Assembly: GCF_009758015.1 (NCBI RefSeq)
Contig: NZ_WSEL01000003.1
Span: 186,001-250,000 of the forward strand
DNA from: Ramlibacter pinisoli
GTDB taxonomy: Bacteria > Pseudomonadota > Gammaproteobacteria > Burkholderiales > Burkholderiaceae_C
Direction: 5' to 3'
Length of the DNA: 64,000 nucleotides
Both the position numbers and the translations under genes were made by a program. Each line of letters begins with the position of its first letter. Positions within the stretch are counted from its first letter, which is position 1. Positions 22,724-55,410 of the stretch are shown here, piece after piece. Under the pieces are notes generated by a model. The model was not told the DNA's origin and ran no database searches. It saw only the letters and a list, made by a program, of their open reading frames with translations.

Positions 22724-23902
22724 TCAGAACGCCGAGATGCCGGTCTGGGCGCGCCCCAGGATGAGCGCGTGGATGTCGTGCGTGCCCTCGTAGGTGTTCA
22801 CCACCTCGAGGTTGACCAGGTGGCGGGCCACCCCGAACTCGTCGCTGATGCCGTTGCCGCCCATCATGTCGCGCGCCAGCCGCGCGATGTCCAGCGCCTT
22901 GCCGCAGGAGTTGCGCTTCAGGATGGACGTGATTTCCACCGAGGCGGTGCCCTCGTCCTTCATGCGGCCCAGGCGCAGGCAGCCCTGCAGGCCGAGCGTG
23001 ATCTCGGTCTGGATGTCGGCCAGCTTCTTCTGGATCAGCTGGTTGGCCGCCAGCGGCTTGCCGAACTGCTTGCGGTCCAGCACGTACTGGCGGGCGCGGT
23101 GCCAGCAGTCCTCAGCGGCGCCGAGAGCGCCCCAGGCGATGCCGTAGCGGGCCGAGTTCAGGCAGGTGAATGGGCCCTTCAGGCCGCGCACCTCGGGGAA
23201 GGCGTTCTCCTCGGGGCAGAACACCTCGTCCATCACCACCTCCCCGGTGGTCGAGGCACGCAGGCCAACCTTGCCCAGGATCTTGGGTGCCGACAGGCCC
23301 TTCCAGCCCTTCTCCAGCACGAAGCCGCGGATGGCGCCCTCGTCGTCCTTGGCCCAGATGACGAACACGTCGGCAAACGGCGAGTTGGAGATCCACATCT
23401 TGCTGCCGGTGAGCTTGTAGCCGCCGTCGACCTTGCGGGCGCGCGTGATCATGCTGCCGGGGTCCGAGCCGTGGTTCGGCTCGGTGAGGCCGAAGCAGCC
23501 GATCCATTCGCCGGTGGCCAGCTTGGGCAGGTACTTCTGCTTCGTCGCCTCGTTGCCGAACTCGAAGATCGGCACCATGACCAGCGACGACTGCACGCTC
23601 ATCATCGAGCGGTAGCCCGAGTCGACGCGCTCGACCTCACGGGCGATGAGGCCGTAGCAGACGTAGTTGAGGCCGGCGCCGCCGTACTGCTCGGGGATGG
23701 TCGAGCCGAGCAGGCCCAGCTCGCCCATCTCGCGGAAGATCTTCGGGTCGGTGGTCTCGGTGCGGAACGCTTCGATCACGCGCGGAGCCAGGCGATCCTG
23801 GCTGTAGGCCTGCGCGGCATCGCGCACGGCTCGCTCGTCGTCGGTGAGCTGCTGGTCCAGCAGCAGGGGGTCGGCCCAGTTGAAAGCGGCTTTGGCAGCC
23901 AT
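22724..23902 (-). CDS. gcdH: Glutaryl-CoA dehydrogenase
   Basis: This 392-residue flavoprotein oxidises and decarboxylates glutaryl-CoA to crotonyl-CoA. The sequence is close to the GcdH pattern: [20 protein letters not shown] at the start, [42 protein letters not shown], and the catalytic glutamate E372 in [16 protein letters not shown]. The ATG at 23902 has AGGAG upstream. It is the last gene of the minus-strand aromatic-acyl-CoA operon, 11 nt after ridA. That position suggests the pathway ends in glutaryl-CoA or a C5 equivalent, although gcdH also serves lysine and benzoate breakdown. Confidence 0.93.
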
Positions 23903-23913
23903 GAACGATTCTC

Positions 23914-24315
23914 CTAATCCGGCAACACGGCCGTCACTTCGATCTCGACCTTGGCTCGGTCCTCGATGAGGGCCCTCACCTCCACCGCCGTCATGGCGAT
24001 GTCGTAATGGCCGATCAGCTCGCGGAACGCGGCGCCGACCTTCTTGCCGGCCGCCAGGTACTCGCGCTTGTCGGTGACGTACCACGTCATCCGGACGATA
24101 TTTTCAGGCCTGGCACCGGCCTCCCGCAGCACGTCGGCGACATTGCGCAGCGCCTGCCAGGCCTGGTCGCCGAAATCGTCGCTGTGGAACACGCCCTGGG
24201 CGTCCCAGCCGATCATGCCGGCGATGGACAGCAGCCGGCCGCGCGCGATCACCGCGTTGGCGTAGCCCTTGGGCCGGGGCCAGCCCTGGGGCAGCACCAC
24301 CTGGTGGTTGGACAT
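23914..24315 (-). CDS. RidA/YjgF-family enamine/imine deaminase
   Basis: This 133-residue Rid-family protein carries the fold's usual segments ([49 protein letters not shown]). Arginine and glutamate at typical active-site positions are visible ([18 protein letters not shown]). Rid enzymes hydrolyse reactive enamines and imines with release of ammonia. It has an excellent Shine-Dalgarno sequence (AGGAGG) and lies between the acyl-CoA dehydrogenase and gcdH. In an operon for a 2-amino-aromatic CoA ester, an enamine-hydrolysing step would be needed, so a pathway-specific role is inferred. Confidence 0.88.
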
Positions 24316-24344
24316 GGGGAAGCCTCCTGTGGTTCGTGGGGCGC

Positions 24345-26372
<2,028 letters not shown>

Positions 26373-26390
26373 GGTGTCTCCTGTGGTCGG

Positions 26391-28826: not shown

Positions 28827-29840
28827 TCAGGCGGCCTGGGCCAGCGGTTGGTGCGCCAGTGCCATCACCTCGCGCGGGTCACGGCCCTTCAGGCGGTGGT
28901 CGCTCCAGACCTGGCGCCAGCGCCGCGCGCCCGGCAGGCCGTTGTACAGCCCCAGCATGTGGCGCGCAATCGTGTTCCAGGGCGTGCCGTGGGCGCGGGC
29001 CTGCCCGGCCATGTAGTCGGCCATCGCCGCCTCGACCGCCTCCCGGCTGAGTTCGCGTTCCGGGGCACCGAAGAAGGTCTGGTCCCAGGAGGCCATCCAC
29101 CAGGGGTTGTGGTAGGCCTCGCGCCCGGCCATCACGCCATCGAGCACGCGCAGCTCGTTCTCGACCTGGCCGCTGGTGGTGATGCCGCCGTTGATGACGA
29201 AGTCGAGGTGCGGGAAGTCCCGCTTGAGCTGGCGCACGGTCTCGTAGCGCAGCGGCGGGATGTCGCGGTTCTCCTTGGGCGACAGGCCTTTCAGCCAGGC
29301 GTTGCGCGCGTGGACGATGAAGACCCGGCAGCCGGCCTCGCTGACGGTGCCGACGAAGTCGCGCACGAACCCGTAGCGCTCCTCGCGGTCGATGCCGATG
29401 CGGTGCTTCACCGTCACGGGCACGGCGACCGCGTCGACCATCGCCTTGACGCAATCCGCCACCAGCTGCGGCTCGGCCATGAGGCAGGCCCCGAAGGCGC
29501 CGCGCTGCACCCGCTCGCTCGGGCACCCGCAGTTGAGGTTGATCTCGTCGTAGCCCCAGCGCTCGCCCAGCCGGGCGCAGTGCGCCAGGTCGTCGGGCTC
29601 GCTGCCCCCGAGCTGCAGGGCAACCGGGTGCTCCTCGTCCGCGAAGTCCAGGTGCCGCGGCACATCGCCGTGCAGCAGCGCGCCGGTGGTCACCATCTCC
29701 GTGTACAGCAGCGTCTCGCGGCTGAGCAGGCGGTGGAAATGGCGGCAATGCCGGTCGGTCCAGTCCATCATCGGCGCGACGGACAGGCGGCGGGCGCGGC
29801 GGAGCGAATCGGGAGAAGGCTGGGGCAAAGCGACGGTCAT
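28827..29840 (-). CDS. dusA: tRNA-dihydrouridine(20/20a) synthase DusA
   Basis: This 337-residue flavoenzyme reduces uridine 20/20a in tRNA to dihydrouridine. It has the DusA-type start [20 protein letters not shown] and the catalytic cysteine C106 in [46 protein letters not shown] and INGGITT bind FMN and tRNA. The ATG at 29840 gives the normal family length; in-frame ATGs further upstream would add up to 80 arginine/alanine-rich residues with no family resemblance. It lies 78 bp upstream of the aromatic operon on the same strand, with no clear terminator between, so some read-through is possible. Confidence 0.93.
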
Positions 29841-30329
29841 GGCAGAAGCCGGCTCAGCCCGGCAGGTCGCCATTGTCTCAGTCGTCGCTACCGCTCGTGC
29901 GCACGTCACGTCCATGAGGCGGCGGCCACGGACGGTGAGACGGTCGCCGGCACATCGAGCCGGGGCGGCCATGTCCGATCGCGCGACGCCTGCGATGACC
30001 TGGGCCGTCGCCCGGCGCGGCGGCCGCGAGCAGCCGGGCCGCGGTGTCGACGGTGTCGCCGCTGACCGCATAGGTGCCACCGGGCACCGTGTCCGGGGCC
30101 GGCGGCGACCACCCGGTTGGACGCCGACGCTGCCCGGATGCTAGGGCAACCCCGGGGGTGCAATGGCCTCCACTGTATATAGTATCCCGCGATCGACGCG
30201 TAGAAGAAGGTGTGCGCGCCGGGTTGAATGCTCTATTGGCAAAGTCGAAGCGCGAACAGGACGGTCCACCTGGCATCGACTTTGCATACAGTATTCCTGT
30301 CGTCTTTTCATTCGCAAGGAGTCGTCCCG
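29841..30329. other. 489-bp non-coding stretch between divergent dusA and ABC transporter
   Basis: No convincing gene was found here. The part next to dusA is ordinary GC-rich sequence. Nearer the transporter the sequence becomes AT-richer, with ACTGTATATAGTAT at 30172-30185 and GCATACAGTATTCC at 30284-30297. The two share ACTGTAT in opposite orientations and could be regulator sites for the transporter operon. AAGGAG at 30316-30321 is the transporter's ribosome-binding site. Confidence 0.5.
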
Positions 30330-31334
30330 ATGATCTCGAAGAAGGTTCGTGGCTGGGCAATGACCGCCGCGCTCGTGCTGGGGCTGGCCGGCGGTGCCGC
30401 CGCCCAGGGTAGTCCCACCAAGGTGCGCTACGAGGAGGTGGTGCGCTCCGTGCTGTACCTGCCCGCCTACGTCGCCCTCAGCCAGGGCTACTTCAAGGAC
30501 GCCGGCCTGGACGTTTCCATGAAGACGTCGCAGGGCACGGACAAGGGCATGGCGGCACTGCTGTCGGGCAGCGCGGACATCGTCCTGATCGGCCCGGAGG
30601 CCTCCATCTACGTCGCCAACAGCGAGTCGCCCGTGAAGCCGAAGATCTTCGCCGGCCTGACGGCCACCGACGGCTTCCTGCTGGTCGCTCGCACGAAGCC
30701 GGCCGGCGCCTTCGACTGGAAGCAGGTCAAGGGCAAGAGCGTGATGGCGTTCCGCCCGGGCTCCAATCCCGACGTGTTCCTGCAGACGGCCATGCGCAAG
30801 CACGGCATCGACCCCAAGGCCGACGTCAAGATCGTCAACAACATCGGTCCGGCCGCGCGCACCGGCGCCTGGATGGCCGGCCAGGCCGACTTCGGCATCT
30901 TCCTCGAGCCGGAAGCGACCATGATGGAAAAGAACGGCCAGGGCTTCGTGGTCGCTTCCGTCGGCCGCGAAGTGGGCCCGGTCGACTACACCGTCTTCAC
31001 AGCCACGGACGCCTTCCTGAAGCAGAACCCCGGCGTGGCGCAGGCCTGGACCCAGGCCATCGTGCGCGCGCAGAAGCATGTCGCCACGGCGGCGCCGGCG
31101 CAGCTGGCCGGGCAGATCGCTTCCTTCTTCCCCGGCATGAGCGAGGCCGAACTGGTCGCCGCCGTGGAACGCTACCGCGGCATCGGGCTGTGGAAGGTCG
31201 ACCCGGTCGTGGAACGCCGCGCCATCGAGAGCCTGCAGGACATGCTGGTCGCCAGTGGCGTGCTCGACGCCGCCAAGCGCGTGCGCTACGAGGCCGTGGT
31301 GGTCAACGACTTCGCCAGCAAGGCGGTCCGCTGA
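30330..31334 (+). CDS. ABC transporter substrate-binding protein (NMT1/SsuA type)
   Basis: This 334-residue periplasmic binding protein has a signal peptide (MISKKVRGWAMTAALVLGLA, cleaved after GAAAQG) and an NMT1/THI5-like fold. Family features are VRSVLYLPAYVALSQGYFKD, a GTDKGMAALLSGSADI ligand region and GRTGAWMAG-like ARTGAWMAGQADFG. Relatives bind sulfonates, nitrate, pyrimidine precursors or aromatic and amide compounds. AAGGAG precedes the ATG. It is first in an operon with ATPase, permease and an isochorismatase-fold hydrolase, which hints that the ligand contains an amide or carbamoyl group. Confidence 0.88.
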   Translation: MISKKVRGWAMTAALVLGLAGGAAAQGSPTKVRYEEVVRSVLYLPAYVALSQGYFKDAGLDVSMKTSQGTDKGMAALLSGSADIVLIGPEASIYVANSESPVKPKIFAGLTATDGFLLVARTKPAGAFDWKQVKGKSVMAFRPGSNPDVFLQTAMRKHGIDPKADVKIVNNIGPAARTGAWMAGQADFGIFLEPEATMMEKNGQGFVVASVGREVGPVDYTVFTATDAFLKQNPGVAQAWTQAIVRAQKHVATAAPAQLAGQIASFFPGMSEAELVAAVERYRGIGLWKVDPVVERRAIESLQDMLVASGVLDAAKRVRYEAVVVNDFASKAVR

Positions 31335-32143
31335 TGTCCGCCGTGCTACAGGAATCGGCGCTTCCGCTCGCGCCGCGCGTGGCCCTGCGCGACGTGTCGC
31401 TGCGCTACTTCACCGCAGCCGGCGAGACGCAGGCCCTCGATCGCATCAGCCTGGAGGTGGGCGCCGGCGAATTCGTGAGCCTGATCGGCCAGTCCGGTTG
31501 CGGCAAGAGCACGCTGCTGTCGCTGGTCGCGGGCATCCTGCCACCGTCCTCGGGCGAGGTCCGTGTCGACGGAGTCCCGGTGCAGGGACCCTCCCCGCGC
31601 GTGGGCTACATGCTGCAGCAGGACTACCTGTTCGAATGGCGCACGATCCTGGACAACGCGCTGCTCGGTGCACAGATCCAGCAGCGTGACCTGAAGCAGG
31701 CCCGCGAGCGGGCCATCCACCTGCTGCACAAGTGCGGCATGGGGGCCTTCCTGCACCATTACCCGCGCCAGCTGTCCGGCGGCATGCGCCAGCGTGTCGC
31801 CCTGGCGCGCACGCTGGTCACCGAGCCCGACGTCGTGCTGCTCGACGAGCCGTTCTCGGCGCTCGACTCGCAGACCCGGCTGGCCATCGCGGACGAAGTG
31901 GTGGACGTGCTGCGCAGCGAGGGCAAATCAGTGCTCCTGGTCACCCACGACATCGGCGAGGCGATCGCCATGACCGACCGCGTGGTGGTGCTGTCGCGCC
32001 GGCCCGGACGCATCAAGAGCGAATTCAGCATGACGTTCGGCGGCGGCAAGCGGCCGACGCCGATGCAGGCCCGCGCACGCCCCGAATTCAACGACTATTT
32101 CCGCACGCTCTGGGATGAGCTGGACGTGCACGTGGAGGGCTGA
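31334..32143 (+). CDS. ABC transporter ATP-binding protein (SsuB/TauB type)
   Basis: This 269-residue ATPase energises the neighbouring importer. The Walker A motif is GQSGCGKST, the signature is LSGGMRQRVALA, and Walker B with its glutamate is VVLLDEPFSALD. The H-loop is LLVTHDIGEA. The ATG shares one nt with the stop of the binding-protein gene, so they are translationally coupled. It is of the nitrate/sulfonate/taurine group. Confidence 0.92.
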   Translation: MSAVLQESALPLAPRVALRDVSLRYFTAAGETQALDRISLEVGAGEFVSLIGQSGCGKSTLLSLVAGILPPSSGEVRVDGVPVQGPSPRVGYMLQQDYLFEWRTILDNALLGAQIQQRDLKQARERAIHLLHKCGMGAFLHHYPRQLSGGMRQRVALARTLVTEPDVVLLDEPFSALDSQTRLAIADEVVDVLRSEGKSVLLVTHDIGEAIAMTDRVVVLSRRPGRIKSEFSMTFGGGKRPTPMQARARPEFNDYFRTLWDELDVHVEG

Positions 32144-32144
32144 A

Positions 32145-32981
32145 ATGGCAACCACCTTGACCCTGGCGTCCACCCCCGACGCCGCCCCCGCCCCGAGCCC
32201 GGAATACCGGGCCTGGCGCACGCGCGAGCAGCGCCGCCGCTACTGGATCCTCGGCACGCAGGCGCTGCTGCTGGCGCTGTTCCTGGCGCTGTGGGAAGTC
32301 CTGGCCCGCACGCACCTGGTCAACCCGCTGCTCACCAGCTATCCCAGCGCTCTGTGGCCGGCCTTCCAGGACCTGCTGCGCAACGGCGACCTCCTGGGCC
32401 ACACCTGGGCCACCCTGAAGGCGACGCTCATCGGCTTCACGCTGAGCATGGCCATCGGCGTGGCGGTCGCGGCAGGCCTGTGGTGGTCCGGCTTCGCGAA
32501 CAAGGTGCTGGACCCGTTCCTGGTGGTGGCCAACGCCATGCCCAAGATCGCGTTCGTGCCCATCTTCTACATCTGGCTGGGCTCGGACTACTCGGTCTAC
32601 GGCATGGCCGTCGCGATCGCCGTGTTCGTCACCATCATGGTGATCTACGAGGGCTTCCAGGGCATCGACCCGAACAAGATCAAGCTGGCCCGCACGTTCG
32701 GCGCGAGCCGTGCGCAGGTGCTGCGCCTGGTCGTGCTGCCGGGCAGCGTGCCGACGCTGATCGCGGCCCTCAAGATGAACATCGGGCTGGCGCTGGTGGG
32801 CGTGATCGTGGGCGAGTTCCAGTCGGCCAACGCCGGCCTGGGCTTCCTGATCCTCAACGGCAGCCAGGTGTTCAAGCTGAACATCGTGATGACCGCGATC
32901 GTGGTGCTGGGCGTGCTGTCGGGCCTGATGTACCTGGGCATCGCGCGGATCGAGGCGGCCCTGTCCCGCCGCTACGCCTGA
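32145..32981 (+). CDS. ABC transporter permease (SsuC/TauC type)
   Basis: This 278-residue inner-membrane permease has about six hydrophobic segments after a polar N-terminus of some 35 residues. The coupling EAA-like loop reads GIDPNKIKLARTFGASRAQV followed by VLPGSVPTLIAALK. The start at 32145 lies one nt after the ATPase stop. It belongs with the binding protein and ATPase as one importer; a single permease gene implies a homodimer. Confidence 0.92.
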   Translation: MATTLTLASTPDAAPAPSPEYRAWRTREQRRRYWILGTQALLLALFLALWEVLARTHLVNPLLTSYPSALWPAFQDLLRNGDLLGHTWATLKATLIGFTLSMAIGVAVAAGLWWSGFANKVLDPFLVVANAMPKIAFVPIFYIWLGSDYSVYGMAVAIAVFVTIMVIYEGFQGIDPNKIKLARTFGASRAQVLRLVVLPGSVPTLIAALKMNIGLALVGVIVGEFQSANAGLGFLILNGSQVFKLNIVMTAIVVLGVLSGLMYLGIARIEAALSRRYA

Positions 32982-32994
32982 AGGAAGGGTGTCC

Positions 32995-33684
32995 ATGGAC
33001 TTTCCGCAGTGGGTGGTGGACCGGGTGCTCGCCCGCCAGGGCTGCCTGCATCCCTACGAGCGCTTCGACGCGGCACGCACGGCCTTCGTCGTCGTCGACA
33101 TGCAGAACTACTACACCCAGCCCGGGTACCTGGGCGAATGCGCGGCGTCACGGGCCACCTTCCCGGCCGTCAACCGCCTCGCGGACGCCCTGCGCGCCTC
33201 AGGCGGCCACGTGGTCTGGGTGCAGACCAGCGCCGACGGCGCCGACGAGTTCTGGTCGCACCACCATGCGTACATGCTGACCCCCGAGCGCAGTGCCCGC
33301 CGCCTGCGCGAGCTGGCCAGCAGCCATGCCGGCTACCAGCTCGCACCCGGGCTGCACGTGGCCCCGGCCGATGCCCGCGTGACCAAGCGCTGCTACAGCG
33401 CCCTGGCCCCGAACTCGTCGCCGCTGGACGCGGTGCTGCGCGAACGCGGCGTGACGCACGTGCTGGTGGGCGGCACGGTGACCAACGTGTGCTGCGAATC
33501 GACCGCGCGCGACGCCATGATGATGGACTACGCCACCGTCATGGTGCACGACGCGCTGTCCGCGGTGACGCCGCACGAGCACGAGACCAGCCTGCAGAAC
33601 TGGATGCTGTTCTTCGGCGACGTGCTGGGTACGCAGGACATCATCCGGCGCCTGCAGGCCGCGCCGGTCGCTGCCACCGCCTGA
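32995..33684 (+). CDS. Isochorismatase-family cysteine hydrolase (amidase/carbamoylase-like)
   Basis: This 229-residue cysteine hydrolase has the family triad: D35 in FVVVDMQNYY, K131 in VTKRCYSAL and C166 in TVTNVCCESTARDA. Relatives include N-carbamoylsarcosine amidohydrolase, biuret hydrolase and RutB, which cut C-N bonds of amides or ureides. AAGGAAGGG precedes the ATG, 13 nt after the permease stop. It probably processes what the ABC importer delivers. It also lies next to, and convergent with, the HyuAB-UbiD-UbiX cluster, which may or may not be linked. The exact substrate is unknown. Confidence 0.85.
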   Translation: MDFPQWVVDRVLARQGCLHPYERFDAARTAFVVVDMQNYYTQPGYLGECAASRATFPAVNRLADALRASGGHVVWVQTSADGADEFWSHHHAYMLTPERSARRLRELASSHAGYQLAPGLHVAPADARVTKRCYSALAPNSSPLDAVLRERGVTHVLVGGTVTNVCCESTARDAMMMDYATVMVHDALSAVTPHEHETSLQNWMLFFGDVLGTQDIIRRLQAAPVAATA

Positions 33685-33723
33685 GCGGCGCGGCAAGTTC
33701 TGCCACTTCCGGCCAGTGGGGTC

Positions 33724-34329
33724 TCAGTCGTCGGCGGGGGCGCGCCCGGTGCCGGCTGCCTTGCCCGTCCCCGACCAGCGGTCATACGAGCCTTCGGCCG
33801 TGATCCCGAACTGGTCGAGCACGCGCCAGACCGTGTGGTCGACCATCTCGTCGATGGAGCTCGGCAGCGCATAGAAGGCCGGCACGGGCGGCATGATGCG
33901 GGCGCCCATCTCGGTGGCATTGGTCATGTTGCGCAGGTGGGCCAGGGTCAGGGGTGTCTCGCGCGCCATCAGCACCAGGGTGCGCCGCTCCTTGAGCGTG
34001 ACATCCGCCGCCCGCGTGATCAGGTTGTCGTTGAAGCCATGCGCCACGGCCGCCAGGGTGCGCATGGAACACGGCGCGACGACCATGCCGCCGTGCCGGA
34101 AGGAGCCGCTGGCGATGGCCGCGCCGACGTCGTTGATGTCGTAATGGACGTCGGCCAGGGCCTGCACCGTGGACCGGGCCAGTCCCATCTCCTGCTGCAG
34201 GGTCAGCCAGCCCGAGCGCGACACGACCAGGTGCGTCTCGACGCCGAGCTCGCGCAGGCGTGCCAGGAGGCGCACCCCGTACACCGCGCCGGTGGCGCCG
34301 GTGATGCCGACCACCATGCGCGCGCTCAT
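33724..34329 (-). CDS. UbiX/Pad1-type flavin prenyltransferase
   Basis: This 201-residue flavin prenyltransferase makes prenylated FMN, the cofactor of UbiD decarboxylases. It has the Rossmann-like start MVVGITGATGAVYGVRLL, SGSFRHGGMVVAPCSMRTLA, and the flavin/phosphate-binding run DVTLKERRTLVLMARETPL, followed by NMTNATEMGARIMPP. Its ATG overlaps the UbiD stop by 4 nt (ATGA). Placement directly after UbiD indicates a dedicated cofactor supply for that decarboxylase rather than ubiquinone synthesis. Confidence 0.9.
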   Translation of the reverse strand: MSARMVVGITGATGAVYGVRLLARLRELGVETHLVVSRSGWLTLQQEMGLARSTVQALADVHYDINDVGAAIASGSFRHGGMVVAPCSMRTLAAVAHGFNDNLITRAADVTLKERRTLVLMARETPLTLAHLRNMTNATEMGARIMPPVPAFYALPSSIDEMVDHTVWRVLDQFGITAEGSYDRWSGTGKAAGTGRAPADD

Positions 34330-35666
34330 GTGCCCAGCCCGCCCGGCAGGTAATCGGCCAGCCGCACCGCCTCGACGCCGGGGATGGTCTTGCGCTGGAA
34401 CTCGGCCTCCCGGCCCCAGGGCCGGGTGGCGTCCAGGCCGAGCCGGCCCCAGTGGTCCTTGTGGGGGTCTCGGTAGAAGCCGGGCACGTCGGGCACGACC
34501 ATCGTGCGGGTGTCGGCCCGGCCCCTCGTCAGGAAGGCCCACACCACCTCGTCGAGGTTGTCGATGTCGACGTCCTCGTCGACCACCACCACCAGCTTGT
34601 TGTAGTCGAGGTGCGAGCCCATCGCGGCCAACAGCACGTGCTGCGCGTGGCCCTCGTACTGCTTGCGGATCTTGACGATGGTGTTCATCACCGTCGGCCG
34701 GCAAGAGACGTCCAGCACCCCGCGCACCTGGCTCTTCAGGACGCGGTAGATGCGTGCGGCGGTGGCCGCCTCCAGCGGCCGCAGGTCCTCGTCGGAGCCG
34801 CAGATGAGCCCGTGGAACACGGCGCCGCGACGCCAGCTGACGTGGGTGACCTCGAACACGTGGTTCTCGCCGACCTCGACGTAGTAGCCCATGAACTCGC
34901 CGAACGGGCCTTCCGGCCGCCGGACACCGGGCAGGATGCGGCCCTCGATCACGATCTCGGCGTCGGCCGGCACGTCCAGGTCGATGGTGCGGCAGCGCCG
35001 CACCGGCAACGGCTCGCCGCGCATGGAGGCGGCCAGCGCCATCTCGTTGCCCTCCGGCGGCAGCGAGACGCAGGCGGCCATGAACACTTCCGGCGCGGTC
35101 CCGATCAGGATGGCGGCTTCCAGCGGCTGGCCGCGCGCTTCGGCGGCCAGCTGGTACTTCGCCAGGTCGTGCGAGCTGCCCAGGCGGATGCGCAGCTCGT
35201 CGTCCGATACCAGCATGGACCGGTGGAATGACAGGTTGGGCACGCCGCTGTCGGGGTCCCTGGCGAGGAAGATGCCCGAGGTGATGTACGGCGCACCATC
35301 GCGCCCGTGGTAGGTCAGGATGGGCAGGTCGGACAGGCGCCCCGACTCCAGTTCCTCGCCGGCGCCATCGGGCACCCGCACGAACCAGTCGTCGAGGCGC
35401 TCGGAGGCGGCGATGTGCTCCTGCAGCCGCTCGCAGAAGGTCTGGCCGGCCCCGCAGCGGATCATTTCGCGCAGCCTCGCATGCTGGCTGAAGACGTTCA
35501 GCACCACCGGCATGCGATGGCCCTTCACGTGGCGGAACAGCACCGCCTTGGGCGATGCCTGCTGCAACCGGCGGGCGACCGCGGCCGCCTCGAAGCGCGG
35601 GTCGACCTCGCGCTCGACTTCCAGCAGGTCGCCGCGGGCGCGCAGCTGGTCCAGGTACTGTCTCAT
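34326..35666 (-). CDS. UbiD-family (prenyl-FMN) decarboxylase
   Basis: This 446-residue UbiD-family enzyme reversibly decarboxylates aromatic, heteroaromatic or alpha,beta-unsaturated acids with prenylated FMN. The conserved core is visible in LARDPDSGVPNLSFHRSML, the E-R-E region around ILPGVRRPEGPFGEFMGYY, and YNKLVVVVDEDVDIDN. The gene overlaps the fused HyuAB gene upstream and UbiX downstream by 4 nt each, making an obligate operon. The substrate is not predictable from sequence; the ATP-dependent HyuAB partner suggests that a nitrogen- or oxygen-containing ring acid is handled. Confidence 0.9.
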   Translation of the reverse strand: MRQYLDQLRARGDLLEVEREVDPRFEAAAVARRLQQASPKAVLFRHVKGHRMPVVLNVFSQHARLREMIRCGAGQTFCERLQEHIAASERLDDWFVRVPDGAGEELESGRLSDLPILTYHGRDGAPYITSGIFLARDPDSGVPNLSFHRSMLVSDDELRIRLGSSHDLAKYQLAAEARGQPLEAAILIGTAPEVFMAACVSLPPEGNEMALAASMRGEPLPVRRCRTIDLDVPADAEIVIEGRILPGVRRPEGPFGEFMGYYVEVGENHVFEVTHVSWRRGAVFHGLICGSDEDLRPLEAATAARIYRVLKSQVRGVLDVSCRPTVMNTIVKIRKQYEGHAQHVLLAAMGSHLDYNKLVVVVDEDVDIDNLDEVVWAFLTRGRADTRTMVVPDVPGFYRDPHKDHWGRLGLDATRPWGREAEFQRKTIPGVEAVRLADYLPGGLGT

Positions 35667-38600
35667 GGCCGCATTGTGGCCGCGGCCAGGTAGCCCAGGC
35701 GCTCGTCCTCGGCCACCGCGCGCGGGTCGCGCTGCGCCGCCGGGCCCAGGCCCGCGCCGCCGGGAACGTCGATGCGCAGCACCTCGCCCGCGGGGACGGT
35801 CTGCAGTCCCATGGACCGCAGCGCCTGTCCGCTGGCCAGCCCGACCCAGCCCGGCGCGCCGTCGTCGCCGCCGTCGCGTCCCCGCGCCGGGTTGCGCACG
35901 CGGTCGAAGATGCCGAACACCTGGAACGGCGAGCCGTCCAGCGTGGCCACCTCGACCCGCTGGCCGAGACCGCCCCGGAACCGCCCTGCCCCGCCGGAGC
36001 CGGGCAGCAGTTCCTTGCGCCAGATGACGATCGGGGCCGCGCTTTCGCACACCTCGACCGGGATGGCGCGGATGCCGCTCGGGAAGGCGGTGGCGGACAG
36101 GCCGTCGCTCGCCGGCCGGGCACCCGAGCCACCGGCGTTGAAGAACAGGATCTCGAACGGCGGGACCTTGCAGCCTTCGCTGCCGGCCGCGCGGGCGACG
36201 GCCGGGCCGCCGCGCAGCTGCAGGCCCCAGTTGCAGGCCGCGCCCTCGGCCGGGATCCGGCCCGGCATCGCGCCGGCCAGCGCGGCCAGCACGACCTCGG
36301 GCAGGAACTGGCCGATGATGTGGCGCGCGCACACCGGCGCCGGGTGCTGGGCATTCAGGATGGACCCTGCCGGCGCGTCGACCTCGACCAGCGCCAGTGA
36401 CCCGGCGTTGTTCGGCACGTCGGGCGCCACCGCCGCGCGGACCCCGAAGGCGGCATAGGCACGGGTGTAGTTCAGCACCAGGTTGATGCCGTGGCTGCTG
36501 GCCGGCGAGCTGCCGTCGAATCCCACCCGGATGCGGCCGTCGCCGATGGTCACCGAGCACTGGATGTGCACCGGCGCGTCGTAGCCGTCCAGCTGGAGGC
36601 TGGAGCGGTACGTGCCGGGCGGCAGCGCATCGATCGCCCGGCGCATGCCGGCGGCCGACCGTGCCATCACGGCCTGGGCGATCGACGCCAGCCCGCGCTC
36701 GCCGAACTCGTCGAGCATGGCGGCCAGCCGGCGCCCGCTGACTTCGTTGGCCGTGATGTACGACAGGATGTCCCCCACCACCAGATCGGGCTGGCGCACG
36801 TTGGCCCGCACGATGCTGAGCAGGTCGCCGTTCACCTGCCCGGCGCGCGCCAGCGGCAGGATAGGGATGTAGAGGCCCTCCTCGTGGACGGACCGGCCAT
36901 CGGGGCCCTGCCCCAGTCCGCCGACATCGACCTGGTGGCAGGTGCAGGCGAAGAAGCCGATCACCTCGCCGGCCTGGAACACAGGCGACAGCACGGTGAC
37001 GTCGTGCAGGTGGCCCGAGGTGAGCCAGGGATCGTTGGTGATGAAGTGGTCGCCCTCGCGCATCGCCGCGGCCGGGTACTTGGCCAGGAAGTGCACGGCG
37101 CAGGCGGCCATCGAGTTCACATGGCCCGGGGTGCCGGTCACGGCCTGGGCGATCAGGCGGCCCTGCAGGTCGAACAGGCCGGCCGACAGGTCGCCGGCTT
37201 CGCGCACCGTGGGCGAGAAGGCGGTGCGCATCAGCGTGCGCGCCTGCTCCTCGACCACCGAGATCAGCCGGCCCCAGAGCACCTGCACGCGGATGTCGTC
37301 GGGCATGGCGTCAGCCGGGGCGTCCGTGCTGCCGGCGAGCAGCAGCTGCAGGTGGCCGCCCGGTGCCCCCGCGACCTCGAACCCGGCCGGCACGACGACG
37401 GTCGTCTCTTCCTCGCGCAGCAGGGCCGGACCGGCAAGCCGGCCCGCGCGGGCGACGGCGCGGGCCGAGGTGGCACGGCCGTCGGTCCACTGGCGGCGGC
37501 CCTGGTCGAAGAAGCGACAGGCAGTCCCACCCGCCTGTTCGCGGCCGGCGTCGGTCATCGCGGGAATCCGGCGCGGCGCCGCGGCTTCCACCCGCACCGA
37601 CCAGCCGAGCACCTCGACGGTCGCGCCATCGATCACCCGGCCGTACAGCGACCGGTAGGCGGCCTCGAAGGCTTCGCGCAGTCCGGCACCGTCCTCCGCC
37701 TCCAGCTCGCGGCCCGGCACGGGCACGCGGATCTCGTGTCCCTGGCCCTGGTAGCGCATCCAGGCGGTGCGCGCCTCCCGCAGGTCCTCGCCGGAGGCGG
37801 CGCGCCGCACCACCTCGTGCATCGCAACGGCCATGGGCGCCAGCAACGCGTTGGCGGCGGCGGCATCGAACTGCGGCAGCGGCATGCGGACGCTGCGCGT
37901 GCTCTCGAAGGCGATCGCCGCGCGCAGGAACCCGAGCGCGGAGCCGACGCCGGCACCGTCGGGCACCACCACCTGCTCCAGCCCGAGCTTGCGGGCCAGC
38001 CGGGCCGCGTGCAGCGGCGCCATGCCGCCGATGGCGACCAGCGTGCGCCCTTCCACGCCCTTGCCGACCTCGACGGCATGCTCGTGCACGGCGGTGGCCA
38101 TGCTCTCGTCCACCAGCTCGCAGATGCTCCAGGCGGTGTCGGCCACGGACAGGCCGAGCGCCTCGGCCAGCGGCCGCAGCGCCTCGTTGGCCGCGTCGAC
38201 GTCGAGCGGCATGCGGCCGCCGGCGAACGATCGGGCGTCCAGGCGCCCCAGCACCAGGTGGGCATCGGTGACCGTCGGCAGCCGGCCGCCCCGGCCGTAG
38301 CACGCCGGTCCCGGCTCGGAGCCGGCGCTCTCGGGCCCGACCCGCAGCCGGCCGAGCGCATCGACGTGGGCGATGGAGCCGCCCCCGGCCCCGATCTCCG
38401 CCAGTTCGACCACCGGGAAGCGCAGCGGGATGCCGCTGCCGGCCTTGAACCGGGCCAGCCGCGCCACCTCCATGGTGCGGGCCGTCTGCGGCGCCCCACC
38501 ATCGATGAAGCAGAGCTTGGCCGTGGTGCCGCCGATGTCCACCAGCAGGGCCTTGTCGATGCCCAGTTCGGTGGCGACGCTCGCGGCCAGGATGGCACCG

Positions 38601-39415
38601 CCCGCCGGACCGGACTCGAGCAGCCGCACGGGGAAAGCACGTGCCGTGGCGACGTCGCACAGGCCGCCGTTCGACAGCATCAGCGCCAGCGGGGCGCGGA
38701 CGCCGCGCTGCGCCAGGGCCGCCTCGAGGCGGCCGAGGTAGCCGGCCATCAGCGGCTGCACGTAGGCATTCACGCAGGCGGTAGCGAACCGCTCGTACTC
38801 CCGGATCTCGGGCGCCACCTCGGCCGACGTGGAGACGAACAGGTGGGGCCGGTGACGGCGCAGGAACTCGGCCGCGCTTCGCTCGTGCGCCGGGTTGGCA
38901 TGGCTGTGCAGGAAGCCGACGGCCACAGCGCTCACGTCGGCCGCGTCGAGGGCCGGCAGCAGGGCCTGCAGGGCCTCGTCGGTCAGCGGCCGCAGCACGC
39001 GGCCCGAGGCGGCCATCCGCTCCGGGAGCGTGAAGCGCAGATGACGCGGAACCAGCGGCGCCGGCTTGTCGACGTTCAGGTCGTAGTGGTCATAGCGGCT
39101 CTCGCTGCCCATCTCGAGCGTGTCGCGGAAGCCCTCGGTGGTGACGAAGGCCAGCCGGGCACCGCGGCGCTCGATCACCGCGTTGGTCGCCAGGGTCGTG
39201 CCGTGCAGGACCGATTCCAGCTCGGCCGGACGGATCGCGGCATCGGCCAGCAGCCGGTCGAGTCCTTCCAGGACGGCACGTTCCGGAGCGTCCGGGGTCG
39301 TGAGGACCTTGGCGAAGAAGCGCTGGCCGACGCCGCCGCGCTCGACCTCGAGCGCGAAGTCGGTGAAGGTGCCGCCGATGTCGATGCCGACGCGGGCACG
39401 CAGGGCGGGGCTCAT
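35663..39415 (-). CDS. Fused hydantoinase/oxoprolinase A-B protein
   Basis: This 1250-residue chain carries both halves of an ATP-dependent hydantoinase/5-oxoprolinase/carboxylase. The HyuA half (about 1-700) starts RVGIDIGGTFTDFALEVERG, with HGTTLATNAVIERRGAR and LLVDIGGTTAKLCFIDGG as ASKHA nucleotide motifs. The HyuB half (about 705-1250) starts near DIRVQVLWGRLISVVEEQAR and includes AVTGTPGHVNSM and FITNDPWLTSGHLHDV with likely metal ligands. In most bacteria the halves are separate genes; a fusion is the 5-oxoprolinase-like layout. Family members open lactams or hydantoins or carboxylate ketones using ATP. The ATG overlaps the GntR stop and its own stop overlaps the UbiD start, 4 nt each. 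Confidence 0.88.
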   Translation of the reverse strand: MSPALRARVGIDIGGTFTDFALEVERGGVGQRFFAKVLTTPDAPERAVLEGLDRLLADAAIRPAELESVLHGTTLATNAVIERRGARLAFVTTEGFRDTLEMGSESRYDHYDLNVDKPAPLVPRHLRFTLPERMAASGRVLRPLTDEALQALLPALDAADVSAVAVGFLHSHANPAHERSAAEFLRRHRPHLFVSTSAEVAPEIREYERFATACVNAYVQPLMAGYLGRLEAALAQRGVRAPLALMLSNGGLCDVATARAFPVRLLESGPAGGAILAASVATELGIDKALLVDIGGTTAKLCFIDGGAPQTARTMEVARLARFKAGSGIPLRFPVVELAEIGAGGGSIAHVDALGRLRVGPESAGSEPGPACYGRGGRLPTVTDAHLVLGRLDARSFAGGRMPLDVDAANEALRPLAEALGLSVADTAWSICELVDESMATAVHEHAVEVGKGVEGRTLVAIGGMAPLHAARLARKLGLEQVVVPDGAGVGSALGFLRAAIAFESTRSVRMPLPQFDAAAANALLAPMAVAMHEVVRRAASGEDLREARTAWMRYQGQGHEIRVPVPGRELEAEDGAGLREAFEAAYRSLYGRVIDGATVEVLGWSVRVEAAAPRRIPAMTDAGREQAGGTACRFFDQGRRQWTDGRATSARAVARAGRLAGPALLREEETTVVVPAGFEVAGAPGGHLQLLLAGSTDAPADAMPDDIRVQVLWGRLISVVEEQARTLMRTAFSPTVREAGDLSAGLFDLQGRLIAQAVTGTPGHVNSMAACAVHFLAKYPAAAMREGDHFITNDPWLTSGHLHDVTVLSPVFQAGEVIGFFACTCHQVDVGGLGQGPDGRSVHEEGLYIPILPLARAGQVNGDLLSIVRANVRQPDLVVGDILSYITANEVSGRRLAAMLDEFGERGLASIAQAVMARSAAGMRRAIDALPPGTYRSSLQLDGYDAPVHIQCSVTIGDGRIRVGFDGSSPASSHGINLVLNYTRAYAAFGVRAAVAPDVPNNAGSLALVEVDAPAGSILNAQHPAPVCARHIIGQFLPEVVLAALAGAMPGRIPAEGAACNWGLQLRGGPAVARAAGSEGCKVPPFEILFFNAGGSGARPASDGLSATAFPSGIRAIPVEVCESAAPIVIWRKELLPGSGGAGRFRGGLGQRVEVATLDGSPFQVFGIFDRVRNPARGRDGGDDGAPGWVGLASGQALRSMGLQTVPAGEVLRIDVPGGAGLGPAAQRDPRAVAEDERLGYLAAATMRP

Positions 39416-40098
39416 GCGCGGCTCCGCCGGCGGGCCGGCGCCAGGCCCAGCATGCAGTCGCTGGCCTCGCGCATCAGCTGGCGCATCTGTGCCTCGGCCT
39501 GCTCGTGGGCGCCGGCGCGGATGGCTTCCACCAGCGCCCGGTGGTGCTTGACCACGGTCGCGCGGTGCTCCGGTCGGGCCAACGTAGCACGGCGCAGCGC
39601 CTGGATAGACGCGTCATAGCGGCTGGCGGCTTCGGCCAGCCGCCCGTTGCCCGCCAGCCGCATCAGCCCCTGGCGGAACGCATGGTTGGCGATCGAGAAC
39701 TTCTGCGGCGACTTCAGCGGCAGCGCCCGCTCCTCGTCGGCCAGCGCGGCTTCGAGCTGCTGCACCCCGGCCGGGGTGGCCCGGTCGGCCGCGCGGGCGG
39801 CGATGTAGGGCTCCATCAGCAGCCGCACCTCCATGATCTCCTCGATGTCGGCCCGCGTGAGGGTCGATACGACGCGGCGCGCGCCGGAATCGACCAGGCC
39901 TTCGCGCCGCAGCCGCGCCAGCGCCTCGCGCACCGGCGTGCGCGACACGCCCAGCAGCGTCGCCAGCTGGGTCTCGGTGAGCTTTTGCGCCGGGTCGAGC
40001 GCGCCGCTGGCGATCTTCTGGTGCACCGCCCGGTACACCTTCTCGGACAGAGGCTCGCCGCGGCGCAGCGGCGCCAGCGGGGGATCGGGCTGTTTCAT
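39412..40098 (-). CDS. GntR-family (FCD domain) transcriptional regulator
   Basis: This 228-residue FadR-type regulator has a winged helix-turn-helix at residues 15-80 (LSEKVYRAVHQKIASGALDP, LLGVSRTPVREALARLRREG). A helical FCD ligand-binding domain follows, with the histidines and acidic residues expected to hold a metal-bound carboxylate (MEVRLLMEPYIAARAADR, ANHAFRQGLMRLAG). It is the first gene of the operon with HyuAB, UbiD and UbiX and is divergent from a Bug receptor. It therefore probably represses both units until a carboxylate inducer is present. Confidence 0.9.
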   Translation of the reverse strand: MKQPDPPLAPLRRGEPLSEKVYRAVHQKIASGALDPAQKLTETQLATLLGVSRTPVREALARLRREGLVDSGARRVVSTLTRADIEEIMEVRLLMEPYIAARAADRATPAGVQQLEAALADEERALPLKSPQKFSIANHAFRQGLMRLAGNGRLAEAASRYDASIQALRRATLARPEHRATVVKHHRALVEAIRAGAHEQAEAQMRQLMREASDCMLGLAPARRRSRA

Positions 40099-40285
40099 GC
40101 CGGTCAATGTAGCAGCGGGGGCCGCCCGCACCAACCCGAAAAATGCCGCGGAACGACAAATACAAATGTTTTTTTCTGTCCAGCCGGAGCAGCGGCGCCA
40201 GTCGAGGAAGCCGCCATTGCGCCGTCCGGCAGGGCCGCATACACTGAAAAAACAATTGCATTTGCGCAGCACTTCCGGAGGCTCC
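40099..40285. promoter_or_regulatory. Divergent control region between GntR operon and Bug receptor
   Basis: These 187 bp hold the promoters of two divergent units. Two AT-rich patches stand out: ACAAATACAAATGTTTTTTT near 40153-40172, and GCATACACTGAAAAAACAAT near 40238-40257, followed by TGCATTTGCG. FCD-type GntR regulators often bind such short AT-rich pseudo-palindromes. No exact operator can be assigned. CGGAGG before 40286 is the receptor's ribosome-binding site. Confidence 0.5.
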
Positions 40286-41263
40286 ATGAACCCGCATCGC
40301 CGCTCGCTGGCCCGCTTCGGCGCCGCCGCCCTCCTCGCCCTGGCCGCCGGCGCCGCGCCGGCCCAGGATGCCCCCATCCACCTGCTGGTGGGCTTCGCCC
40401 CGGGCGGCATGACGGACGTGGTCGGCCGGGTGCTGGCACAGGGCCTGCAGGCCGAGCTGGGCCGCACCGTGCTGGTGGAGAACCGGCCGGGCGCCGGCGG
40501 ACAGATCGCCGCACAGGCGCTCAAGGCGGCGCGGCCGGACGGCAACACGCTGTTCCTGACCAACAACCACACCACGGCCATGATCCCGCTGACCACGGTC
40601 AACCCCGGCTACGAGGCCAGGGACTTCGCGGCCGTGGGCCTGGTGGCCACCAATCCGAACTTCTTCATCGTCAACCCGGCCGTGGTCGGCCCGTCGGTCG
40701 ACAGCGTCAAGGCGTTCGTGCAATGGGCCAAGGCCAATCCGGCACGCGGCAACATCGGCGTGCCGGCACCTGCCAGCGCGCCCGAGTTCTCGGTCACCGT
40801 CATGGGCCAGTCGCTCGGGGCCGACCTCAAGCCGGTGGCCTACCGCGGCGACGCACCGCTGGTGCAGGACCTGCTGGGCGGGCAGATCGCCGCCGGCATC
40901 TCCGGCATCTCCTCGGCGCTGCCGCACGTCAAGGCGGGCAAGCTCAAGCTGGTGGCCGTCGACGGGCCGAAGCGCCTGGCCGGCTTCCCGGACATCCCGA
41001 CCTACGGCGAGTTGGGCATCCAGGGCCTGGACGACGTCATCTTCATCGGCGTGGTCGCGCCGGCCGGCATGCCCGCCGACCTGATCGCCCGCTACAACGC
41101 CGCCATCAACAAGGTGGTGGCGTCCCGGGCCTTCCTCGAGCGCACCAGCGAGGCCGGCATCGTGCCGCTGACCGGCACGCCGGAGGAGATGGCTCGCCGC
41201 ACCGAGGCCAGCCGGCTGGCCAACATCCCCCTGGTGAAGGCGGCCGGCTTCAAGCCGCAATAA
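40286..41263 (+). CDS. Bug/TctC-family periplasmic solute-binding receptor
   Basis: This 325-residue TTT receptor has a signal peptide starting MNPHRRSLARFGAAALLALA and cleaved after APAQD. The mature protein shows [38 protein letters not shown] and AYRGDAPLVQDLLGGQIAAG; here the usual VPYKG is replaced by VAYRG. The ATG follows CGGAGG. It is divergent from the GntR/HyuAB/UbiD/UbiX operon and is the likely capture protein for that pathway's substrate. Confidence 0.9.
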   Translation: MNPHRRSLARFGAAALLALAAGAAPAQDAPIHLLVGFAPGGMTDVVGRVLAQGLQAELGRTVLVENRPGAGGQIAAQALKAARPDGNTLFLTNNHTTAMIPLTTVNPGYEARDFAAVGLVATNPNFFIVNPAVVGPSVDSVKAFVQWAKANPARGNIGVPAPASAPEFSVTVMGQSLGADLKPVAYRGDAPLVQDLLGGQIAAGISGISSALPHVKAGKLKLVAVDGPKRLAGFPDIPTYGELGIQGLDDVIFIGVVAPAGMPADLIARYNAAINKVVASRAFLERTSEAGIVPLTGTPEEMARRTEASRLANIPLVKAAGFKPQ

Positions 41264-41500
41264 GCCTCCACTCGCCGTCGCGACGCCTCGCGGGCGACGG
41301 CTGACGGTGGCGTTGGGCCGCAGCAGCAGGTGCAGCGCGTCGCGGGTCTGCGCGGCCGACACCATGGAGTCGATTCCGCCCGGCGCCAGCATGTGGCGGG
41401 GCACGGCGGCGGCGCGCGACCGCTCCTACAGGGGTCGCCCTCGACTGCCGACAGCGGCGGGCGACAAGCCGCGCTGCAATAGCTGTCCCACGGAGCACCC

Positions 41501-41905
41501 ATGAAGCACTTCGAACTCAGCCAAGACATGCTCAACCTGCGTGGCCAGTTCTACCCGACCGGCCACATCGTCGCCATGTTCGCCACTGCCGACGCGGCCG
41601 AGGCCGCCGGAAGCGCGCTGCAGTCCGCAGGGTTGGACGCCGACGACATCAGCCTGATCACGCCGGAAGCGATGTTGCGCGACATCGTGCGCACCGTCGG
41701 CAGCTCCGGCGCGACCCTGCCCTCAGCCGGCACCGAGGCCGACACGGTGCGACGCTACGCCGACTACGCCTCGAGCGGCCATTACGGCCTGCTGGTGAAG
41801 GCGCCCGACCATGACGACAGCGACCGGGTCATGGAAGTGCTGCAGCGCCACCAGGTGGCGCATGCGCAGAAGTACCGGATGCTGGTGATCGAAGACCTGG
41901 CCTGA
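41501..41905 (+). CDS. Small conserved protein of unknown function
   Basis: I do not recognise a characterised family for this 134-residue protein. It starts MKHFELSQDMLNLRGQFYPT and has no signal peptide or membrane segment. The pattern GHIVAMFATADAAEAAGSAL followed by DDISLITPEAM resembles small ferredoxin-fold stress proteins that compare paired beta-alpha units, and a second half ends VMEVLQRHQVAHAQKYRMLV. GGAG precedes the ATG. The gene stands alone; a strong hairpin follows it. The 237 bp before it (41264-41500) show nothing else convincing. Confidence 0.7.
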   Translation: MKHFELSQDMLNLRGQFYPTGHIVAMFATADAAEAAGSALQSAGLDADDISLITPEAMLRDIVRTVGSSGATLPSAGTEADTVRRYADYASSGHYGLLVKAPDHDDSDRVMEVLQRHQVAHAQKYRMLVIEDLA

Positions 41906-55391: not shown

Positions 55392-55410
55392 CAACCACCA
55401 GGAGGCCGCG

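Follow-up and report, generated by a model that had tools for sequence, protein, structure and literature searches.

The window, a 64,000-nt stretch of Ramlibacter pinisoli DNA, contains an apparently acquired gene island in which a UbiD-family decarboxylase and a fused HyuAB protein are encoded in one operon. The island probably catabolizes one nitrogen-containing ring acid, combining decarboxylation with ATP-dependent hydrolysis of a ring amide. UbiD enzymes add or remove the ring carboxyl of aromatic compounds; HyuAB enzymes use ATP to open stable amide rings. A literature search turned up no paper that links UbiD with HyuAB, consistent with the original prediction that no characterized pathway uses both in one operon. 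In the portions of two auxin-degradation papers that were consulted, the terms "hydantoin" and "oxoprolin" occur 0 times (PMC10374108 and PMC12633357) and "UbiD" 0 times (PMC12633357). Several relatives keep the UbiD-HyuAB pair, which points to an undescribed breakdown route for a nitrogen-containing ring acid.

Limits and gene content of the island

Approximately 11.6 kb is inserted between genes that are adjacent in 9/12 congeneric regions. The island extends from about 29790 to 41490 (left end 29,790-29,815, right end 41,404-41,490), between dusA and a gene at 41501, and host homology stops on either side of it. The congeneric regions come from 12 of the 54 other genomes in which PhaC had a match, picked by score and size of contig. 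dusA and the 41501 homologue are at most 1.6 kb apart in the nine regions and at most 0.3 kb apart in five of these; the exceptions are L149, without the 41501 homologue, and L141 and L151, without dusA. At E 1e-20 no island gene was found in the 12 regions except Bug paralogues with 28-38% identity. Judged by these sequence comparisons, the island is an acquired gene block. GC content gave no compositional sign of transfer (0.67-0.75 per kb in the island, 0.64-0.73 in the flanks), and a search for boundary repeats was uninformative, returning many weak repeats in GC-rich sequence.

The operon is encoded on the minus strand and consists of a GntR (FCD) regulator (39412..40098; PF00392, PF07729), the 1250-residue HyuAB (35663..39415), the 446-residue UbiD (34326..35666) and the flavin prenyltransferase UbiX (33724..34329). 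Open reading frames overlap by 4 nt (ATGA) at each of the three junctions, GntR/HyuAB, HyuAB/UbiD and UbiD/UbiX, and gene coordinates thereby bear out the original prediction of a single transcription unit with a fused HyuAB. The Bug/TctC solute receptor gene (40286..41263, plus strand) indeed diverges from it, 187 nt from GntR, and its product carries the TctC domain that defines Bug receptors (PF03401, E 1e-45, 156.9 bits). Pfam assignments were above cut-off for 5/5 of these proteins.

Four more genes, all on the plus strand, precede the operon. They encode an NMT1/SsuA-type ABC substrate-binding protein (30330..31334; PF09084, E 4e-21, with weak PDB relatives), an ABC transporter ATPase (31334..32143; PF00005), a permease (32145..32981; PF00528) and an isochorismatase-fold hydrolase (32995..33684; PF00857, E 1e-36). 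The system had been drawn as 33724..41263; its genes stand, and its limits omit roughly 3.9 kb on the left that belong to this insertion too (30330-32981 and 32995-33684). That the Bug receptor captures the cyclic acid, as also proposed, is unsupported, since the island encodes a complete ABC transporter itself and a TRAP transporter lies beside HyuAB in Pigmentiphaga.

A paired AT-rich motif lies between GntR and Bug. The first copy, CAAATACAAATGTTTTTT (40157..40174, plus strand), matches the inverted second copy, CAAATGCAATTGTTTTTT (40247..40264, minus strand), at 16/18 positions. Two Pigmentiphaga genomes have a counterpart upstream of GntR, and the AAAAAACAATTG half of the second copy is identical to the palindrome there. 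The pair is a putative GntR operator. No copy of the motif was seen in L018, L110, L111, L023 or L057, and a promoter scan gave no promoter.

Catalytic residues of UbiD and HyuAB

UbiD scored 320 against TIGR00148 (cut-off 245). Its UbiD domains and intact E-R-E residues R149, E252 and E257, aligned with HmfF and AnInD, place it in the family. A ubiquinone-pathway UbiD was rejected (PRK10922, 191 bits vs cut-off 788). UbiX (TIGR00421, 243 bits, cut-off 108.9) is available from the overlapping gene, and UbiD would use the prenyl-FMN made by UbiX and release CO2. The best match both by sequence (E 1e-71) and by fold (TM 0.91, 38% identity) is HmfF (6h6v/6h6x), whose substrate we take to be 2,5-furandicarboxylate, the PDB title giving HmfF alone. 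HmfF shares the aligned E-R-E residues, but its H296 and R304, presumably the distal-carboxylate site, are Asp294 and Thr302 in the island enzyme. A fold search also identified AnInD (7p9q), a UbiD-family indole-3-carboxylate decarboxylase with 27% identity, whose R155, E261 and E266 align with R149, E252 and E257. AnInD D169, which contacts the indole nitrogen and is required for activity on indole-3-carboxylate (PMC8988006), is replaced by Gly163, and AnInD L409 by Arg399. Because pocket residues differ, neither the HmfF nor the AnInD substrate was assigned to the island UbiD.

Arg399, at the position of the AnInD gate leucine (L409), was present in 77/77 aligned UbiD loci; L059, whose tblastn segment starts late, was left out of the 78. 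R161, H166 and R399 form a distinctive conserved set. By sequence the island UbiD is best placed in an uncharacterized subfamily nearest to HmfF (38%). A second UbiD in the genome, at C9:1736924, differs at 161 and 399. Since the residue set is distinctive, one substrate assignment would help annotate Paraburkholderia, Caballeronia, Pandoraea, Pigmentiphaga, rhizobia and many MAGs.

HyuAB joins HyuA (residues 1-690) to HyuB (approximately 706-1242). The HyuA ATP motifs and the HyuB metal ligands D-H-D-H, judged against an excerpt of PMC8453981, are conserved. Together with the presence of alpha and beta parts only, they place HyuAB in the hydantoinase/oxoprolinase (Hyd) branch. Caprolactamase CapAB (6yra) and the fused N-methylhydantoinase (7hk5) are likewise two-part ATP-dependent amide hydrolases. 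CapB ligands D41, H99, D102 and H124 and the ATP motifs are conserved in the island protein, and its fused layout is that of 7hk5. One HyuA motif reads GGTTAK, where CapAB and N-methylhydantoinase have GGTSFD or GGTSAD. HyuAB scored 442.4 and 165.7 bits against the NCBIfam models of CapA and CapB (cut-off 1000) and far below the cut-offs of the acetophenone carboxylase models, which leaves it outside the acetone/acetophenone carboxylases. None of the genes called in the island encodes a gamma subunit. Predicted ring decarboxylation and ATP-dependent ring opening fit the intact catalytic residues and the lack of this carboxylase gene.

Co-location of UbiD and HyuAB in other genomes

Relatives were obtained by a search of genome contigs (best 80 of 170). 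Of 13 genomes whose UbiD has 72-75% identity, nine carry a HyuAB of this kind (52-73% in the HyuA part) on the UbiD contig, at a distance of up to about 17 kb. LB400 has two such clusters, so that 10/14 loci with at least 72% UbiD identity are linked; in the other four (L012, L016, L018 and L022) the best HyuA match in the genome is at most 43%. Linkage was found in 19/78 loci overall and in 14/78 with the first 10 kb flanks only, counts that are uneven because flanks beyond 10 kb were read only for 10 loci already known to hold HyuAB. The linked loci come from Beta- and Alphaproteobacteria plus a single Chloroflexota MAG; some are closely related, and they do not count as independent cases. 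No HyuA or HyuB was seen within the stretch read in 59/78 loci, many of them cut by contig ends, suggesting that this UbiD subfamily often acts without HyuAB or with HyuAB encoded elsewhere. The expected conservation of the pair is seen among close UbiD relatives and only partly across the wider subfamily.

Gene order varies. The exact order GntR-HyuAB-UbiD-UbiX was found in none of the 78 loci. The Pigmentiphaga cluster has the order UbiD-GntR-HyuAB without UbiX, and in L023 and L057 GntR and HyuA are divergent from UbiD. A dihydropyrimidinase-like hydrolase, which is a second kind of ring opener, lies near UbiD in 5/78 loci, none with HyuAB; the L054 copy is below the family cut-off. Neighbor families were assigned by inspection unless a family scan was done, and scans took single members. 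A Paracoccus plasmid carries a related HyuAB with a TPP enzyme and an aldehyde dehydrogenase, and no UbiD is annotated within about 10 kb. The best copy of the relatives' TPP enzyme in the R. pinisoli genome is at 43%.

HyuA was found near UbiD in 9/37 further loci, and in 9/9 the nearby copy is the genome's best match to the island HyuA. These 37 genomes, from 37 of the 65 loci L023-L087, hold 281 HyuA copies, from which chance neighborhood within 10 kb is estimated at about 3% per locus. A 64-row tree sampled 52 locus HyuAs and 120 listed database matches, the 28 fused ones among the latter coming from a capped candidate list; two supported clades (97/86 and 98/87) take in all 19 linked HyuAs. 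Unlabelled rows (34/64) were left uncounted, and three fused rows bear the linked label, hence 4 changes for "fused". Recurrent co-location and the clustering of linked HyuAs support the original prediction that the operon serves one pathway.

It is improbable that UbiD/UbiX and HyuAB act on different compounds and were joined by gene transfer and shared induction. HyuAB families are numerous, as the HyuA copy number illustrates, and UbiD and HyuAB are apart in many loci. Against separate pathways stand the 4-nt overlaps, the recurrence of the pair in distant lineages with differing layouts, and the identity of the paired HyuA as the genome's best match.

Proposed route and candidate substrates

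In the single pathway that we favor, GntR would keep the operon and the divergent receptor gene repressed until it binds an intermediate, and the ABC transporter would take up the compound. UbiX would make prenyl-FMN, a rare flavin cofactor, with which UbiD would strip a ring or ring-conjugated carboxyl. By family chemistry, the HyuA half would then use ATP to activate the amide carbonyl in the ring that is left, and the HyuB half would hydrolyze the activated amide at its metal site. The RutB-like hydrolase may then cut an amide or carbamoyl group exposed by ring opening. A conserved UbiD-HyuAB partnership, if true, would add a new module to heterocycle catabolism. More speculatively, and with low confidence, the new-subfamily UbiD with its invariant Arg for the gate Leu and the HyuAB of an uncharacterized branch could form a two-enzyme device that needs neither oxygen nor a molybdenum hydroxylase to convert a stable N-heteroaromatic acid to an amino or ureido acid with the ring opened. 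Here the sequence might be decarboxylation, ATP-dependent ring opening and decarbamoylation, e.g. orotate to uracil to ureidoacrylate.

Substrate hints diverge: the relatives point to tryptophan/anthranilate chemistry and the RutB-like hydrolase points to a cyclic ureide. It is possible, though unlikely, that an acid derived from tryptophan or indole loses its carboxyl to UbiD and that HyuAB opens a lactam of the oxindole or quinolone type, the carbon passing to anthranilate. Tryptophan/anthranilate genes lie near UbiD in 8/78 loci, 5 of these only in extended stretches. Tryptophan 2,3-dioxygenase and kynureninase are above NCBIfam cut-offs in L024, and L031 and L033 hold 81-88% relatives of both. 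Both Pigmentiphaga clusters contain tryptophan dioxygenase (61-62%) and arylformamidase, the latter above cut-off in L116. The anthranilate dioxygenase AndAc is above cut-off on LB400 chromosome 2, with 95-97% relatives on LB400 chromosome 3 and in P. silvatlantica, and L018 has an AndAc-like enzyme below cut-off. The cluster's substrate-binding proteins resemble 3lft, 3lkv and 6hni, which we take to be aromatic amino-acid binders. A lactam-opening precedent is the ATP-dependent 2-oxoindoleacetyl-CoA gamma-lactamase of anaerobic indoleacetate metabolism, presumably IaaCE. This enzyme belongs to the HyuAB family and has anthranilate-linked chemistry, as in the operon's near relatives; the excerpt of the account consulted mentions no UbiD step (PMC5214803). 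However, the island itself has no tryptophan/anthranilate genes. A salicylyl/anthraniloyl-CoA type cluster at 22.7-28.7 kb was rejected as a part of the system and as linked evidence because congeners without the island carry it too. The aspartate needed for indole-3-carboxylate is Gly163 in the island UbiD, and the RutB-like hydrolase would have no obvious role.

Less probably, the substrate of UbiD is a cyclic ureide acid, for example orotate or a hydantoin or imidazolone bearing a carboxyl. After its decarboxylation, HyuAB would open the ring with ATP to yield the ureido acid, from which the RutB-like hydrolase would free the carbamoyl group. The neatest case would run from orotate through uracil to ureidoacrylate. 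The island hydrolase shares the isochorismatase fold of the RutB (ureidoacrylate amidohydrolase)/N-carbamoylsarcosine amidohydrolase group. RutB is its closest solved relative (8bkd, E 1.6e-21), and biuret hydrolase and N-carbamoylsarcosine amidohydrolase are among its further matches. In the creatinine route, a HyuAB N-methylhydantoinase is likewise combined with an N-carbamoylsarcosine-type amidohydrolase. Dihydropyrimidinase-like, nitrilase-fold and molybdenum-hydroxylase genes occur at the UbiD loci L047, L048, L051, L054 and L058 (single members scanned). On the other hand, the hydrolase is not an assigned RutB member (TIGR03614, 93.1 bits, cut-off 377.95) and is far below the cut-off of the biuret hydrolase model. 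An orthologue of the RutB-like or NMT1 protein lies beside UbiD in none of the other 78 loci (E 1e-15), and the relatives' tryptophan genes do not fit a ureide. By eye, NMT1-type ABC genes were seen beside UbiD in L062, L070, L083 and L087 only.

Very improbable is a route in which HyuAB is an ATP-dependent ketone carboxylase and UbiD moves or removes the carboxyl, because a HyuAB with two subunit domains and no adjoining gamma subunit gene is hydrolase-like, and not a ketone carboxylase, by the criteria in the part of PMC5214803 consulted. In its favor, HyuA has Lys300 where CapA has Asp302, and an acetophenone carboxylase subunit has lysine at that site according to an excerpt of PMC8453981. 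Lys300 was rejected as a carboxylase mark since it is present in all 120 HyuA matches listed (28/28 fused and 92/92 unfused), and therefore marks a broad branch.

Gene order and insertion of the island

The genes for GntR (39412-40098), a fused HyuA-HyuB (HyuAB, 35663-39415), UbiD (34326-35666) and UbiX (33724-34329) lie on the minus strand with ATGA overlaps at 3/3 junctions, bearing out the original prediction of a four-gene overlapping unit. As also predicted, the TctC/Bug receptor gene (40286-41263, plus strand) diverges from the operon, 187 nt from GntR. Pfam assignments were obtained for 5/5 of these genes. Pfam also identified an NMT1-type binding protein, ABC ATPase, permease and isochorismatase-fold hydrolase (30330-33684), convergent with UbiX across a 39 nt gap.

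The PHA synthase flanking the region is present in 55/59 genus genomes, R. pinisoli itself counted, and its neighborhood was compared in 12 of the others. dusA (28827) and a homologue of the gene at 41501 are adjacent in 9/12 congeneric regions, separated by at most 1.6 kb, and by at most 0.3 kb in five of the nine. The exceptions are L149, which has no 41501 homologue, and L141 and L151, which have no dusA. At five junctions compared, DNA homology to congeners ends at ~29,790-29,815 and restarts at ~41,404-41,510, in region L145 only at ~41,684. Because dusA and the 41501 homologue adjoin in most of these congeners and homology ends on both sides, R. pinisoli carries ~11.6 kb extra from one or several insertion events. 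The ABC transporter and RutB-like hydrolase are inside the insertion. At E 1e-20 island genes had no match in the 12 congeneric regions, save Bug paralogues (28-38% identity). At the thresholds used, a close UbiD was found in 1/299 family genomes and a close HyuAB in 1/399, in each case R. pinisoli itself; within the genus, relatives of 40-42% occur in 5/59 other genomes. Base composition gave no added sign of insertion.

The cluster at 22.7-28.7 kb (22724-28748) is outside the insertion, common to congeners, and adjoins dusA in most of the 12 regions. It contains acyl-CoA dehydrogenases, a RidA-like gene (by eye), enoyl-CoA hydratase and, by family scan, PRK08255 (salicylyl-CoA 5-hydroxylase/oxidoreductase; 1409 bits, cut-off 1078).

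Recurrence of UbiD with HyuAB

One scan of genome contigs with the island's UbiD, keeping the best 80 of 170 relatives, yielded 78 loci 48-75% identical to it. In 9/13 genomes behind loci L010-L022, the contig that carries UbiD also encodes, at most ~17 kb away, a HyuAB close to the window's. Since P. xenovorans LB400 has two UbiD and HyuAB clusters, conserved co-occurrence, expected under the original prediction, held at 10/14 loci with UbiD at least 72% identical. Over the whole set it held only in part: HyuAB was absent from the stretch read in 59/78 loci, many on short contigs. In the four unlinked loci of the 14 (L012, L016, L018 and L022) the genome's best HyuA match is at most 43%. HyuA and/or HyuB is near UbiD in 19/78 loci with extended flanks (14/78 without extension), spanning Betaproteobacteria, several alphaproteobacterial layouts and one Anaerolineales MAG.

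Because 37 genomes (loci L023-L053 and L055-L060) hold 281 HyuA copies, a chance HyuA neighbor within 10 kb of UbiD is expected, by our arithmetic, at roughly 3% of loci. Such neighbors were observed at 9/37 loci, five of them close relatives, and in 9/9 the neighboring HyuA is the genome's copy most like the window's. In a HyuA tree of 64 rows the 19 linked rows fell into two supported clades (97/86, n=12; 98/87, n=7), and the 14 fused rows formed a single clade (99/92). Linkage changed four times on the tree versus 9.1 in shuffles, with 0/500 shuffles as low, a clustering inflated by near-copies among the rows.

LB400 carries two similar copies of an extended cluster on chromosomes 2 and 3 (L072 with L102; L019 with L104), comprising ALDH, AraC, UbiD-UbiX, PF04392 ABC, FAD oxidase, TPP enzyme, porin, Asp/Glu racemase, anthranilate dioxygenase and HyuB-HyuA. 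This strain is a good genetic model for the UbiD-HyuAB system. Also counting against a fixed partnership, a Paracoccus yeei plasmid carries a related HyuAB whose neighbors encode a TPP enzyme, an aldehyde dehydrogenase and an aminotransferase; no UbiD is annotated within ~10 kb.

No report pairing UbiD with a hydantoinase/oxoprolinase was found among the papers listed from the open-licence literature, subscription papers being outside the scope, in keeping with the prediction that no characterised pathway is known to use both. These are known enzyme families in an undescribed and recurring combination.

Features of the enzymes

The nearest solved relative of UbiD is HmfF (2,5-furandicarboxylate decarboxylase), followed by fold (model pLDDT 92.8) by AnInD (indole-3-carboxylate decarboxylase). 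Catalytic residues R149, E252 and E257 are kept. In sequence alignment, AnInD D169, required for indole-3-carboxylate activity according to PMC8988006, is replaced by Gly163, and Leu409 by Arg399. Arg399 and Arg161 are present in 77/77 aligned UbiD loci but not in R. pinisoli's other UbiD. On our reading the island's UbiD would represent a subfamily with its own substrate.

HyuAB conserves the ATP motifs and the D-H-D-H ligands that caprolactamase needs (PMC8453981). By the subunit criteria of PMC5214803, it is of the hydrolase type, not a ketone carboxylase. Its HyuA motif is GGTTAK, whereas CapA (a caprolactamase part), ApcC and N-methylhydantoinase have GGTSFD or GGTSAD. The lysine is common to 28/28 fused and 92/92 unfused proteins among the matches listed, so it marks a broad HyuA branch. 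We know of no characterised member of this branch. RutB is the nearest solved relative of the hydrolase at 32995, which scores well under the RutB cut-off.

The genome has seven Hydantoinase_B matches including the window's, three in open frames >1200 aa. Elsewhere (L161:1486-4708), a related HyuAB adjoins a kynureninase-like gene (211.8 bits, under the 246.4 cut-off).

Control, proposed pathway and substrate

The GntR-Bug gap contains two inverted AT-rich 18-mers (40157-40174 and 40247-40264) matching at 16/18, a level reached in 1/200 dinucleotide shuffles of the gap. No other such site occurs in the 64 kb window with up to 4 mismatches. Two Pigmentiphaga genomes have a palindrome, AAAAAACAATTGTTTTTT (one of them with one base changed), ~16 nt ahead of the called start of a GntR that adjoins HyuAB. 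No motif was found at up to 5 mismatches in loci L018, L110, L111, L023 and L057. The putative operator pair lends support to control of the two divergent units by GntR.

In the pathway judged most likely, the substrate would be imported and decarboxylated by UbiD, HyuAB would hydrolyse a ring amide driven by ATP, and the RutB-like enzyme would free an amide or carbamoyl group, all under GntR control. Placing UbiD before HyuAB is a guess. Because the island's called genes include no TctAB membrane genes, Bug may function in sensing rather than transport.

Two substrate signals, tryptophan/anthranilate and ureide-type, disagree; their common theme is a nitrogen heterocycle. Tryptophan/anthranilate genes are near UbiD in 8/78 loci, 5/8 seen only in extended stretches: tryptophan dioxygenase with kynureninase (L024, L031, L033) or with arylformamidase (both Pigmentiphaga), and anthranilate dioxygenase (LB400 twice, P. 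silvatlantica). Paraburkholderia-type clusters further hold a PF04392 ABC system, FAD oxidase, TPP enzyme and aldehyde dehydrogenase. The island's own ureide-type gene is the RutB-like hydrolase. Ureide-type genes near UbiD are a dihydropyrimidinase-like hydrolase, accompanied by nitrilase-fold hydrolase and molybdenum hydroxylase genes, in 5/78 loci and urocanase in 7/78. Across the 78 loci no orthologues of the RutB-like or NMT1 proteins were found near UbiD; judged by eye, UbiD has NMT1-type ABC genes next to it in L062, L070, L083 and L087.

Gammaproteobacterial MAGs (L047, L048, L051, L054, L058) offer a second combination of UbiD with a ring opener: there the same UbiD subfamily occurs together with genes for a dihydropyrimidinase-like hydrolase, a nitrilase-fold hydrolase, molybdenum hydroxylase and, by eye, a CobW-type GTPase. 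One branch of the UbiD subfamily is rhizobial; on S. meliloti pSymA (L172:9464-17412) and at several rhizobial loci in the L063-L087 range, its genes neighbor one annotated as histidine utilization repressor, and genes for TPP enzyme, ALDH, racemase and FAD oxidoreductases are also there. Also recurrent in the vicinity of alphaproteobacterial UbiD genes is a DUF2390/TIGR02444 protein of unknown function (L031:11326-11853, L172:18468-18995). The window also contains an ordinary gentisate cluster (52846-57158) with 3-hydroxybenzoate 6-monooxygenase and gentisate 1,2-dioxygenase, both over cut-off, and a fumarylacetoacetate-hydrolase-family gene under cut-off, then a TRAP transporter (by eye).
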